Origin: Utricularia gibba
Lineage: Eukaryota > Streptophyta > Magnoliopsida > Lamiales > Lentibulariaceae
DNA: 64,000 bases
Direction: 5' to 3'
NCBI GenBank assembly: GCA_002189035.1
Contig: NEEC01000010.1
Location: 186,001-250,000, forward strand
The notes beneath the pieces are model-generated. The model was not told the origin of the DNA and did no database searches. It saw only the letters and a program-made list of their open reading frames with translations. The position numbers were made by a program, and so were the translations under genes. This document shows positions 5,036 through 12,899 of the stretch, piece after piece (position 1 is the stretch's first letter; each line of letters opens with the position of its first letter).

Positions 5036-6022
5036 ATGAGGATATCACAAATACGAATAAGTTGGCACACATATTGAGTTTTCTAAATTGTTTAGACAAT
5101 GGTTCTCACAATTGATGTAATGAGATTACTAAAATAACTATGTGGGTGTTGATTAGAGAATCGATTTATTGAATGACTCGTCTTTGGGATGCTATTATGG
5201 GAAGTTAACCAAGCCTTAATAACAAGATTTCGAATGTGAAAGCCATACAAGTAAACTTAGACTTGAAATCAACAAAATTATCTTGATGTCAAACTCGCAT
5301 TTTTGCTCATTATTAATGAGAGTTTAATCATGGCATGACTAGTATGAAGGAAAAGAGATGAAACTCCTTAAAATTGAAAATAGTTGATTGATCAATAAAA
5401 GATTTATTATTTATATTAGCAATGAGTTCTTATTTCAAGTAATTTCACCAAAGCCTAATAAAAAGTACTGGGACCTTATAGAGTTTAAGCAAGTCATTGA
5501 ATGTTAGTACTTAAATACAATTATAAGTTCGATACATTCGAAAGACATACACATATATTCATATCAAATGAGATATAAATATAATAAAGGCTATTCATTT
5601 TATAGTGGCTAGTCATAAAAAATCTCAATCAATGCACCTAATTATTCTTACATCTTGAAAATTATGATATGCTACTAGATATCAATCATGATCGATAATA
5701 ATATATTTAATTAATCAAGAGATAATTAATAAATTCATTATTACAATCTTGATTCAAGAAGCCTATAAAGTCACACACAATAGTAAAATCATTCATCGAT
5801 ATAAAATTGAATGACGCAATTACATGAGATGTAATTGGAAATGTGAATAAATCAAATAGAAAGTTATTTTGAGATTAATATTGATTAAACTCAAAATAAA
5901 AGATCTGTTATAGATAAGATTTGAGAACATATATATATATATATATTAGATTTTCACGAGATAAGATATTTATGAAGATTTAATTAGATATGTTACTAAA
6001 TATATATATAAGATAAAAAGAA

Positions 6023-6380
6023 GGGAAAATCATATTTTTGATGTATTACGTTTGCCAAAAGTTGCTTCTATAATGCATCATGTTTAAATTTAACAATAAT
6101 GATGCATCATGCTTAAAAAAATTAAAAAACAATACATCATGTTGCAACAAATATTAAAATAGTTCACCACGTTTCAAAAGTTAATTTAACGACATCATTT
6201 TCCAAAAATAACGGAAACAGGACATCAGGTTTAAAAAATTATATTATTTAGGCATCACGTTTCGAAAATTACTCTTTTGGGCATCACGTTTCATAAATTA
6301 CAATGCCAATGCATCATGTTTTAAGAAAGTTATTCTAACTGTGTATTACATTTAAAAAATGACACTTTTGGTTTTTTAAT
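6023..6380. repeat. Left terminal array of the MULE
   Basis: This is an imperfect tandem array of about 30-bp units. Each contains a CATCACGTTT- or GCATCATGTTT-like core followed by AAAAAATTA. Examples start near 6252, 6282 and 6310. The reverse complement of the same unit fills the right end of the element, so the two arrays together form long terminal inverted repeats. Confidence 0.7.
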
Positions 6381-7079
6381 TTTTAAAAAATCAGTATATT
6401 TCAAAAAAATTACGAAATTAATTTTGTATGATATACATTTTGAAGATACATTTTTATCAAATTATATGCATTATTTTGACGACATTTTGAATTTTAAATA
6501 AATTTATATTAAAGACATAATGAATTTAGCTAAAAATTCACATGACATTAGAAAATTATGAAATCTCTTTTGTTTGAAAACATATTTTCTAAATAAAAGC
6601 ATCCACGATCCAATGATACCAAATTTCATATTTTTCTTTCATATTGATTAGATAAAATATATTCATTATATTAAAAATAATTTTGAAATAGATTATACAT
6701 TTGTTTTTAAACAATCTAATGCTTTGTAGAAAAATGTTGAAAGTTGAAAATAACATGATGATGGTGGATCTGAACGTTGACCCTCAAGATTAATAAATGA
6801 AAGTCTATTAATTTTATGTAAAGTAATGTAACCAAAGTAATAAAAAACTAAGACATATTTGACATAAAAGGTATCGCAAGATTGTCTCATAGATCAACTT
6901 TTTCACGTTTCTTGACCTTTCTAACCAATGCCATCAAATCTTCTTTCATTACAAATTGTTTCAAATCTTCTTCATCAAACCATGTGGGACTCATCTGCAT
7001 CATGAACAAAAATCTATTAGAGTTATTTGTATGAGGAACAACTATCCTAATTGTCACTGAAACCTTCACGTACCCAACC

Positions 7080-7760
7080 AATGTCAGAAATAGGTGTGAT
7101 AGTACATGGAGCTTCAGTCATGAACCCGTGGATATAATGAAGAACATAAATGCCACACTCGATTAGCCTTTGTTGGCATGGTACCTAGAATGTTATCAAT
7201 AATCAGATAATTTTTTAATGCATGTAATCCTCATACCTTACCTCAACTGGAATAAGAAGAGTACTCTTGACAATTTCCTCATCCATGGAAGAGTTTGAGA
7301 CCCTACTCTGGTACACATGCCATATAAACCTATCAATATGTTGGAAGAAAAATAATTAACTCATATATACATATATGTTTGAATCACAAAATATTCCTAC
7401 ATTCGCAATTCTTCAGCCTTCGTCTGTATCATATTGGTAAAATCCAATGAATCCAAGTAGAGAATGCAATGCTACTGTGAATTATCAGAGTCGAAATTGC
7501 ACATGATTAACAACAAAAAATGTCCCCTACATTTAATACATAACATCTAACTATCCCTTAAAAATTGATCATTGTACTCCATTGACATACTAACCTTGAA
7601 ATAGTGGGAACAACAAAATATGGGGTGGTAAATGTTCTTCTTCCTACAAATAACGGCCCCAAATTCCTTTGTCTTCGCATCTCAATAGTATCGTAGTATT
7701 GAAAACTAGTAAATTCATACATTTCTTGAATTACTAGCGGGAATGAGCAAATAATTTTCC
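7080..7760 (-). pseudogene. Ulp1/SENP-type SUMO protease (peptidase C48) domain inside the MULE
   Basis: Read on the minus strand, the segments are TTPYFVVPTIS, then GHFLLLIMCNF, CILYLDSLDF, LLIPVE, and VPCQQRLIECGIYVLHYI. This is the order and spacing of a Ulp1 catalytic core. The expected residues are present: His (codon 7520-7522), Asp in LDS (7451-7453), Gln (7170-7175) and Cys in ECG (7155-7157). Two introns restore the frame: 7594-7527 (GTTAGT...GTAG) and 7241-7185 (GTAAGG...CTAG). One in-frame TAG at 7472-7474, probably from CAG, breaks the domain. Ulp1 enzymes mature SUMO and remove it from proteins; here the domain is carried by a transposon and is probably inactive. It lies downstream of the transposase and may once have been part of the same transcript. 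Confidence 0.8.
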
Positions 7761-8639
7761 TGCAACCAATATAAAGATTGAAAGGTTAACATCCCATAAT
7801 AACATAAAAAAGAATAAACTATGGCAACTTACGCCAAAGCATAATCGAACATCACGTCATCCAACATCTCATAGACACGTAAGTGTGGAGCGCACTTATT
7901 TTTTTCCAGGACCTTCGAACCTCGTGACCTGATGTTTTTACTTAGCGGTATATGGGTGTCCTTGATTGTGCTTTTCATGTTGCAACCATTGCCTGTTGCA
8001 ATCTGGACAACTACCTTTGTTCACGCCTTTACCAACACTTGTGACCCAACTTCATCATCATGGCATGATCTTTTATTTGAATGTGTAGCCCAAATTTCAA
8101 TATTATTATCAATAACACGACAAAAGTATTAAATACTACATCATCATAATGTACCTTCTTCTCAATTTTGGAACCATGCTTTTCTGGCATATCATTTGAC
8201 GCTCCACTAATCTTTGGTGAAATTGGTGTTTTGAGAGTGGTGGGTGGAACATCAACATCTTTGATGCCACTAAGTACCTGTGGCCAATTCGACAATCTCA
8301 AGATTTTTACCTTCATGTTAAACAAACAAAAAACAATATTTATGCCTATACATATTTAAAATACCTTAGATTCGAGTGGAGTTCCCGCTCTCTCAGTAGG
8401 CATATCAGTATGTCTCTCTTTGTCTTGTGTTGTCTCTCGAGGTTGTCGTTGTCGTGTTCATTTGGCAGCTGCTTGGGCTTGTCGTTTGACTGGACATCGC
8501 CATGCTTTGTGGCCTGGTGCATTACAAGCAGAGCATACCTGACATTGCCATGATGATCACACAAGTTACCCAATACATCACTATGGTATATACATATAGT
8601 ATAGGTTATTACCTTTATTGAACCATCATCCATGTCTCT

Positions 8640-11126
8640 AGTGTTGCAACTGGCTTCGAATTTCTTCTGCTCCTCACAACGCTGAGTGTTGTGGCCAATT
8701 TACCCACACCAAGAGCATCCTTGTGGCACAACGTTTCCATGTCTACAACATTTGCTTTCCTTTGTGGATGCATGCTTCTCATAGCATCACCTAATGTGGT
8801 GTTTAGGTGGCCTACCTCGATATTCTTTACTATACTTAGATGGCAACATTTTGTCGTAGTGGTTGATGGTCACCTAGCTGGTCCGGGCACACCATGAAGT
8901 GAGTAGGCATAAACTTGTATGTTTCAACATAGTAGCAGCTGTCCACAAAAGCATGAAAAGGCCTGCCCAACGCGTCAATTACAGTCATAGTAAACCTGAA
9001 ACAACTGTTAGATGTTTTCACAATGTTAAATGGAAAGCCGATAAATTAAGGGCATACTAACCTCTTAGCTGCCAAATACCGCAATTACAAACTTTTTTTG
9101 CCAAGTTCACAGTCTCGATCTTGTCACCATTGAACCGCTCCTATCGATCATTCATCGAGCTATAGATGCGACTCACCTTTCCTTTCTTAGCTTTTTCCCC
9201 TAAAACTTGTTCTCCATTGACACGGTGTGCCACTATGCGCTCACACAATAAGACTTGTATTGCCTTTAATAGTGTGATGATTGGCTTTGAACGCGCTCCA
9301 AGTAATGCTGCATTGAATGACTCGGTCATGTTGTTCAACAAGGCATCCGACCTAGTAGAATGCCTAAAAAAAGCATAGCACCAATGCTTTGATGAGATTC
9401 GAAGCATATAGGCATAAACTTTCTGATTCATCTTCATAAGTGCCCACATTTCAGCCTCTCATCCGGTTCTAGTACCTTGTTCGGTAATCCTTCTAACCTA
9501 ATTACAAGCATTCAATTTCCCTCCAGGTTTCCCTTTTAGATTTTGCTGAATATGCCTGATGCAATGGCGATGCTACATCAACAATCATTTCATTAACACA
9601 TGACAATGCTTAACACAATTTATATTACCTCATAGGCCGGAATAAGACTTGCAATAGCTTACCTCATAGCCCGAAATAAGTCTCTCCATATTTAAATCTT
9701 AGCACAACAGCCTCAAAAACCACATCCAATTGGCTTTGTCCTCTTTCCCAACTATGGCCCATGCAAACGGATATGTACCATTGTTTGGATCCAACCCGAT
9801 AACAACAAAGATGAAGTCGGCTGCCTCTGTTTTCACATGGCATGCAACAATGCCAACGAACTGCCTACAACATGCCCTCCAACCTTGTAGTTAACCATTC
9901 GAACGGATATAGCATGACTTTAATATTTATTCTTTGTTAGATATGGGTTTAGCATCAATAACAAAGGTGCTTCGTGGCTTTGACTCAAGAAACTTCTCCC
10001 TGTAATCCCTCAATCGGCTGAATTCCTCAACTCGTCTCCCAAAAATAATTTCATTTGCTTTCTTGCAAGCTCTGTGCAAAGTGACCTTACTTACATCCAT
10101 GGAAATAGCATAAAAAATCTCACGATGGAGCTCTGAAACAGTAATCCCAGGCTTTTGAATGAATCTACATAGGAATCTTCGTGCGATCCAGCTTGATCTT
10201 ACCTCACGGTTCTTTGAAATAGGGTGACAATCCTCTTTGTGGCATAGATTCATGTCTGATATCAACTATGTATTAGAGTGTTTATAACGCGATACCAATA
10301 CAAACCATGTACATTATTCAGTCTACTCCTGAATGAAGAATGCTAATCAGTAGCTTATTTAATACACACAAAACAATACCAACAAAAAGAATAATCACCT
10401 CTTCAGTTTGAGTACCCTCTTTCCGATTCACATGAGCTTTTTGAGTACCACATACAAAGCCCTCGTCTATAAAATAGTTGGTTAGTGCAATCTTAGCCTC
10501 AGCCTTTGATGCAAATTGAATCCCACCCCTACAATTATGAATGTGTAAGCAATACGAGTTGAAGAATACTATATTCAAGAAGTAAAAAAATAGTTCAAGT
10601 AGCAGCAAGGGACGCACCTGAGAGAATCTTCTGTCAAACTATCGTCAGGGCGAAACGTAGGATAGTTAGGATAGAATACCCAGCTGAGATCATCTGCACT
10701 ACCTATGAATGACACAATTTGAAGCTCACAAGAATCCCAATCTTCCGCTTTAACAAGTTGGCACTCTTTAAATGGTAGCTTGCTATCAATGTCATTCTCG
10801 CTCCAATCAATTCCATCATCTGTATTTTGAAAGTCATCATCCTCCAATATTGATATATCACCCATATCATTATTACTTTTAGTTTCAACTCTTCCACAGT
10901 CCATCTCATGATCTCAATGGTTGCTCAGAACAAGAGGTGTCTTCTCCTCATCCCCCTTCACAAATTTCAATGGAAGTTCCTTTTCCAGAAGCTTTCCTGG
11001 TGCTGATTTCTGAAAAACCAAGCAAATGTCATTATTTTTTTGTCTTATATCACCCTGCCCACGAGATGCACACAAGTGAAATTGATAATGGTTGGCTGTA
11101 TTTTCCTTGCAGAACATCATTGGCAC
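8640..11126 (-). pseudogene. mudrA-like MULE transposase, degenerate
   Basis: Segments on the minus strand occur in the usual order. An acidic N-terminal region lies at 11126-10620. A MuDR N-terminal domain follows (10530-10400, FASKAEAKIALTNYF). Next is a helical block with LHREIFYAISMDVSKVTLHRA and RLRDYREKF (10265-9930). A catalytic-core piece contains TYPFAWAIVGKEDKANW (about 9780-9720) and RHCIRHIQQNLKGK (about 9570-9530). The MULE domain end reads WCYAFFRHSTRSDALLNN (9449-9141). A SWIM zinc finger start CNCGIWQLRG lies at 9061-9095. A CCHC knuckle follows (8717-8676; Cys-x2-Cys-x4-His-x4-Cys), interrupted by one TAA. Many frameshifts and stops make it a pseudogene. Some gaps may be introns. 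Confidence 0.85.
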
Positions 11127-11629
11127 ATCATAATTCTATCACACAAGAATTAACAAATTCAAGGTTTTTCAGAAATAAGAACTGACACTGGAAATATGTG
11201 AAAATAGAACAAAACCACGAAGCCCTTCGAGGAGTACAAGCACACCACCTTTGTTTGCTCCGACCACCTGAAAAGTGACAAATGTTAAATTGAATTGAAT
11301 GCCAAGCTCAAGATCTCGTTGAATTCAATGCAAGCTCAAGATCAAACTATCATCAGCTTTATTCTCCACCATCCATCTTGTGAAGAATGGCACAACGGCT
11401 GCCCTAGATCCCCAAAATTGACGAAGAACACTAATGAGCATACTTATTTGGGCTTTTTATTAAAATAATCTTCATGATGTTTTTTAATCGAATAAAATTC
11501 TATATTATTCTGAAATATTTACATAATTTTTTCTATATATTTCTATCATGAAGCTTTTAAACAAGATAGATTTCATATTTTTTGGGTATCAAATGAATTT
11601 TTAAAAAATAAAAAACCAAAACTGTAACT

Positions 11630-12024
11630 CTTAAAACGTGATGCACTATTTGCATATTTTTTTTGAAACATGATGCATTGGTTTGATAATTTTTAAAATG
11701 CGGTGTTCTGATAAGTAATTTTGAAAACGTGATCTTTCTATAGAGTATTTTTTAGAACGTGATATTCTGTTAGAGTATTTTTTAGAACGTGATATTCTGT
11801 TAGAGTAATTTTTAAAACATGATGTTATGTTAGAGTAATTTTTAAAACGTGATGTTCTAATAGAATAATTTTTAAAACGCGATTTTACGGTAGAGTAATT
11901 TTTAAAACATGATGTTCTAATAGAGTAATTTTTAAAACGCAATGTTCCAATATAATATTTTTATAACGTGATGAACTATTATCATGAAAAAGTAGAACGT
12001 GATGTTCGTAAACCAAACATGAGC
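11630..12024. repeat. Right terminal array of the MULE
   Basis: About a dozen imperfect units of roughly 30 bp, of the form AGAGTAATTTTTAAAACGTGATGTTCT, run from 11630 to 12010. Their reverse complement matches the left array at 6040-6380. A 98-codon open frame on the minus strand in this array reads as a repeated FKNYS peptide, which is simply the translated repeat. Confidence 0.75.
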
Positions 12025-12899
12025 ATAAAAAGAAAGATTCAATATGCAAAGATTTTCATATTTTCATTCTCGCTGAGATTTATCTTCAAGGGTCATTTTA
12101 TCTACTAACATCTAAGGAGATCGACTATCATTATGTTGCCTTCATAGAGGTCGTATGCTTTTGACGGTTGTTGAACAACATAGTGCATTAAAATATATTT
12201 TTAGTATCGCTTTACCTGATGTATATCGTATTTGAAGATCTATGATTTGGGTTTCTCAAAAAATTTTAAATTCTACTGCATTGAAGACATATGTTGTCTA
12301 TGAGAAACCTAATAAACTTCTCATCTTCCATGATTTGAGATGTCTTCTAAACTCTAATACTTGAGATTATAAAATAAAATTTATAAACTCAAAGTTTTTC
12401 AAATTGCTAACAAAATAAAATCATATAATGAAATTGGAATTGATAATGAAGAACATAAACTTGTAATATATTCATGTATTTCTGGATATCAAATTTAAGT
12501 TTAATTTGTAATTTAGTTTAACAATAACATAACAACTAAGATACAAAATCATAAAAAAACAATTTAGAAAATTCTAAGGAATTAGCTGATTTGGATTTAC
12601 TTTTATATACAGATTTTATTGAAGGGTTGTAAGTGGATAAAAATATACTTTTTCTATTGTCTATATGCTTACACGAGGCAGATTTACATAAATTGAGGAG
12701 GGCTTTGATTTATAGCATGCTTTTTTTATATAAAGTGCAACCCTCTGGCTACTTCTTTTGTTTGTTGCACCTCTCTTGAAGCATCAATAACATTCGTCGT
12801 CGCGTTCCCTAACATTCTATTACTTAATCGTGTGTTGCAAATTTTCTTGGGTTTGATTGTTTGTATCTGTTTGATATATTTTTGTTGCTGATTTTACTT

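Follow-up and report, generated by a model that had tools for sequence, protein, structure and literature searches.

The analysis covered a 64,000-nucleotide stretch of Utricularia gibba DNA, hereafter the window, in which a minus-strand transposable element occupies positions 6023-12024. On both sides it was flanked by ATAAAAAGAA, a direct repeat of 10 bp without mismatches, whose left (6013-6022) and right (12025-12034) copies form the target-site duplication; the corresponding duplication was 9 bp long at the related copy L054 (TATGCAAAA) and inexact at L048, and the range for MULEs is 8-11 bp. The long inverted ends of the element consisted largely of tandem repeats of about 30 bp. In particular, the left terminal inverted repeat (6023-6410) contained tandem repeats of about 29-30 bp and six heptamers of the form CATCAYG, and the right terminal inverted repeat (11577-12024) contained 30-bp tandem repeats (11687-11972) and seven heptamers of the form CRTGATG; the arms showed 71% identity between 6194-6410 and 11577-11793. 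The heptamer was directional within the tandem repeats, CATCAYG on the left (6223-6300) and CRTGATG on the right (11687-11972), and heptamer repeats were also found in the ends of L048, L050, L053, L054 and L060. The heptamer count in the ends far exceeded that in shuffled sequence, and the arrays in both ends are possible candidates for protein-binding sites. Inside the element, read from 12024 downwards, an N-terminal region resembling MuDR is followed by the core of a MULE transposase and a SWIM finger; two CCHC knuckles and a linker then lead to a C48 peptidase domain. The segment 6023-12024 is a decayed copy from an old TIR-MULE lineage and can make neither transposase nor protease. Rfam, tRNA and other-ORF checks of the window revealed nothing relevant.

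The transposase part was distributed over the following minus-strand exons. The first (10399-10524, limits approximate) encodes a MuDR-type DNA-binding-domain-like segment, FASKAEAKIALTNYF; the window showed no match to PF03108 here, and the homologous exon of copy L052 gave a weak match of 0.0049, below the cut-off. The second (9629-10270) contains the PF10551 core, which was matched at 1.8e-7 in the window and at 9.2e-12 in copy L050. The first catalytic Asp of this core was replaced by Val (9846-9848), so that GIDxCH has become GIVACH; around the second Asp, the sequence was deleted. The third exon (9062-9572) retained the catalytic Glu within the motif MTESFNA (9321-9323) and the start of the SWIM finger. 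As evident from these results, the window copy has kept the Glu and lost both Asp residues of the D-D-E triad, which is complete in L050. The end of the SWIM finger and the first CCHC knuckle lie in the fourth exon (8613-8995), which carries internal deletions in the window copy; the SWIM finger, partly deleted here, matched PF04434 at 5.8e-7 in L050. The fifth exon (8365-8538) encodes the second CCHC zinc knuckle, CSACNAPGHKAWRC, and contains one in-frame stop that is absent from L048. The first-pass annotation had recognised a transposase remnant with MuDR, MULE, SWIM and CCHC parts; the MULE core in the window, the SWIM finger in L050 and the CCHC knuckles bear this out, and for the MuDR part there is the DNA-binding-domain-like exon, with its weak match below the cut-off in L052.

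Downstream on the same strand, a linker exon with phase 0 on both sides (8155-8310) leads into the protease, for which comparison of the copies gave six exons and five introns rather than the two short, frame-restoring introns first proposed. Exon 1 (7833-8080; SNKR...HLRVYxMLDD...ALA) contains a TGA at 8021-8023 and has lost its acceptor in the window copy, and exon 2 spans 7595-7759. Exon 3 (7401-7526) contains the catalytic His (CAT, 7520-7522) and Asp (GAT, 7451-7453), exon 4 covers 7242-7329, and exon 5 (7074-7184) contains the catalytic Gln in a Gln-Gln pair (7170-7175) and the catalytic Cys (TGT, 7155-7157). Exon 6 (6887-6994) encodes the C-terminal tail MSPTWFDEEDL... and ends in TGA; it was kept in L048, L049, L054-L056 and L058. 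All four catalytic codons thus lie exactly where the first-pass annotation had placed them, and the C48 core that it described is real; the in-frame TAG at 7472-7474, which lies between the His and the Asp codons, had been overlooked. These gene models are predictions from splice-site conservation.

The spliced window core matched PF02902, as had been expected, with an E-value of 3.5e-4 and a score of 20.9 bits, narrowly over the cut-off of 20.7. Splicing was needed for this match, since one unspliced exon gave only 0.003. PF02902 was matched by six of eight spliced copies, with a best value of 4.8e-7. When a profile of the copies was compared with the PDB, the matches were human SENP7 (7.7e-5) and ULP2 (0.009), and the His, Asp, Gln and Cys of the profile were in register with those of SENP7. 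The alignment showed His, Asp and Cys to be invariant across eight copies; His and Asp were present in all nine copies, and where the Cys/Gln stretch survives, Cys was found in 8/8 and Gln in 7/8. Additionally, the window lineage has Phe after the His, where Trp is usual, and Glu or Lys instead of Asp before the Cys, and because of these changes the specificity of the protease may have been altered.

The searched genome comprised 100.1 Mb in 516 contigs. The DNA search revealed two close copies over much of the element, on C317 (87%) and C1 (85%). It also revealed another, more distant subfamily with about 65-75% identity. Protease sequence with conserved exons was found in eight further copies (L048, L049, L051, L052, L054, L055, L056 and L058). 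Most relatives have kept the protease, and by the two refuting criteria that the first-pass annotation had set, this retention and the C48 match leave it standing; L050 and L053, aligned to their sister copies, have lost it through deletions. None of the copies examined was intact, and stop codons and frameshifts were scattered among them. A genome-wide PF02902 scan yielded other ULP-type genes and fragments and none of the copies of this element, which were recovered with a family protein query. Several further observations were made on these loci. In L051 and L065 (C409:796250-809600), an insertion of roughly 6 kb interrupts the protease of one copy, the 3' half of which is in L065, and a retrotransposon-like ORF lies at 134-538 on the L051 side. 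The loci L059, L015, L018 and L061 match mainly the element ends and are probably non-autonomous derivatives or fragments. A different MULE directly adjoins the C317 copy (L048, about 8200-9450; C317:1276801-1277100).

We found in the alignment that, in both subfamilies, the exons from the SWIM-CCHC1 exon to the C48 domain are joined by phase-0 introns. In copy L048, the linker is open over four exons in the joined frame, with no stops, and the frame runs from the SWIM finger across both zinc knuckles and on into the protease. These joins and this open frame lead us to predict a transposase-protease fusion: the element probably carried a single long gene in which the reading frame of a transposase (DDE core, SWIM finger, two CCHC knuckles) went on without a break into the C48 domain, read as one transcript. 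A common transcript for transposase and protease, which the first-pass annotation had raised as a possibility, is thus made probable by frame continuity.

The comparison of protease dN/dS among copies that had been recommended at the outset was informative between the subfamilies. The C48 catalytic exons gave 0.12 (95% bootstrap 0.05-0.22) and the whole C48 region about 0.17, compared with 0.10 (0.05-0.15) for the transposase core, 0.19 for SWIM-CCHC1 and 0.40, with a wide interval, for the linker exon; the C48 codons read in shifted frames gave 1.03 and 1.33. With dS between the subfamilies close to saturation, these values are approximations, yet the reading frames differ clearly. Divergence between the subfamilies was also greater in introns (0.72-0.86) than at non-synonymous sites (0.24-0.40). 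These estimates indicate that purifying selection held the protease core about as strictly as the transposase, and given the low values and the clear contrast between frames, the protease was therefore maintained during the active life of the element. Within subfamilies, omega was 0.34-1.13, as expected because the copies are dead. That decay, together with the existence of the protease-less copies, would fit a passively captured ULP passenger of the Pack-MULE kind that plays no part in the life of the element. Such passive capture is nevertheless very unlikely, as it is contradicted by a core constraint between subfamilies comparable to that of the transposase, by the survival of the catalytic residues in nearly all decaying copies and by the joining of the protease frame to that of the transposase. 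Taking anatomy, fusion and selection together, we hold the reading of a selected transposase-protease fusion with good confidence.

The main rival to a SUMO-directed function is self-processing, in which the C48 domain would cut its own polyprotein and free the transposase from the protease. Some viruses use clan CE proteases to cleave viral proteins, and a single continuous frame with a C-terminal protease behind a linker, relaxed constraint in one linker exon and the changed residues beside His and Cys would all suit such a role. On the other hand, the nearest solved relatives, SENP7 and ULP2, are SUMO proteases, and alternative splicing could separate the two products without cleavage; we regard self-processing as unlikely.

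The intron positions bear on the origin of the protease. The ULP2-type gene L003 shares with the MULE protease a phase 2 intron before the His and a phase 2 intron after the Asp, and a phase 0 intron before the VPxQ motif is common to the MULE protease, L003 and L007. Host ULP2-type genes that share these introns would also be compatible with a host ULP gene or pseudogene that merely happens to lie next to or within the remnant of an unrelated MULE, but this explanation is refuted by the same order of parts between the same ends in many unlinked copies, and we give it practically no weight. The simplest reading is that a ULP2-type gene was the source of the protease, which was acquired at the DNA level together with its introns. 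In three other, distant MULE families, L062 (C321), L063 (C3) and L064 (C2), the transposase is likewise followed on its own strand by a C48 domain; all three ULP2-type intron positions and phases were found in L062 and L064, and two were seen in L063. A further protease fragment, L066 (C375), resembles that of L064. In a tree of the C48 core, host and MULE proteases were separated with 83% support, and because this tree is short and weak inside, a single origin is not claimed. A broader proposal makes the C48 domain an obligate component of the transposase, in the same frame, that matures it by self-cleavage or strips SUMO at the tandem-repeat ends of the element, and sees one ancient association, rather than repeated captures, across several deep MULE families; to us this appears doubtful.

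For the selected fusion, we propose the following course. A ULP2/SENP6-7-type protease would have come in at the DNA level; selection then preserved it as a functional component of the transposon. In the mechanism that we consider most likely, the transposase part would bind the tandem-repeat TIRs, and the fused SUMO isopeptidase would thereby reach the element or the transposition complex. There it could take SUMO off the transposase or off repressive proteins of chromatin; this deSUMOylation would favour expression or transposition. Taken alone, this SUMO mechanism is tentative, and we place its chances somewhat below even. An anti-silencing role of the protease is plausible by analogy with the KIU-carrying Vandals, which show strong conservation in an anti-silencing context (review PMC13317346). 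The KIU proteases of Arabidopsis have been judged unlikely to act on SUMO (ULP nomenclature paper, PMC6117577).

The element addresses the wider question of why ULP proteases recur in plant transposons. A core constraint similar to that of the transposase over a split that nearly saturates silent sites, together with the frame join, argues for a function in the transposon life cycle. The predicted fusion protein is testable, and the small genome offers several families for comparison.

In grapevine, ULP domains of both orientations are described downstream of the transposase in MULEs with and without TIRs, and they are also present in Jittery-like and CACTA elements (PMC2528002). CACTA-ULP elements of grapevine and rice show the same pairing of transposase and ULP with a different transposase superfamily (PMC2528002). 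Kaonashi (KI/KIU) of Arabidopsis, which the first-pass annotation had named as a member of the same class, is likewise a MULE with a long-retained C48 domain. The KI-MULEs are described as non-TIR elements with the ULP reversed relative to mudrA (PMC2528002), and the window element is the opposite on both counts: it has TIRs, and its ULP lies on the transposase strand in a continuous frame. Identity with Kaonashi was accordingly rejected. In some Kaonashi elements the C48 domain belongs to a VANC gene (PMC13317346), whereas no separate VANC-like gene was recognised in the window element. Compared with the ULP2/SENP6-7 SUMO proteases, the window lineage has the same H-D-Q-C register, and three intron positions and phases are common with host ULP2-type genes, but it is fused to a transposase and differs in the residues after the His and before the Cys. 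The TIRs and the same-sense ULP downstream of the transposase place the window element in the ULP-carrying class to which it had first been assigned, with the TIR-MULEs of melon (CUMULE), rice and grapevine (Mutavine), for which TIR and same-sense cases are described (PMC2528002). Relative to CUMULE and Mutavine, known here by description, the window element adds a reading frame that continues across two CCHC knuckles, evidence of selection acting on the protease, and intron positions of ULP2 type. Several plants are already known to have transposons that carry a protease, and the evidence for selection and fusion is the main addition made here.
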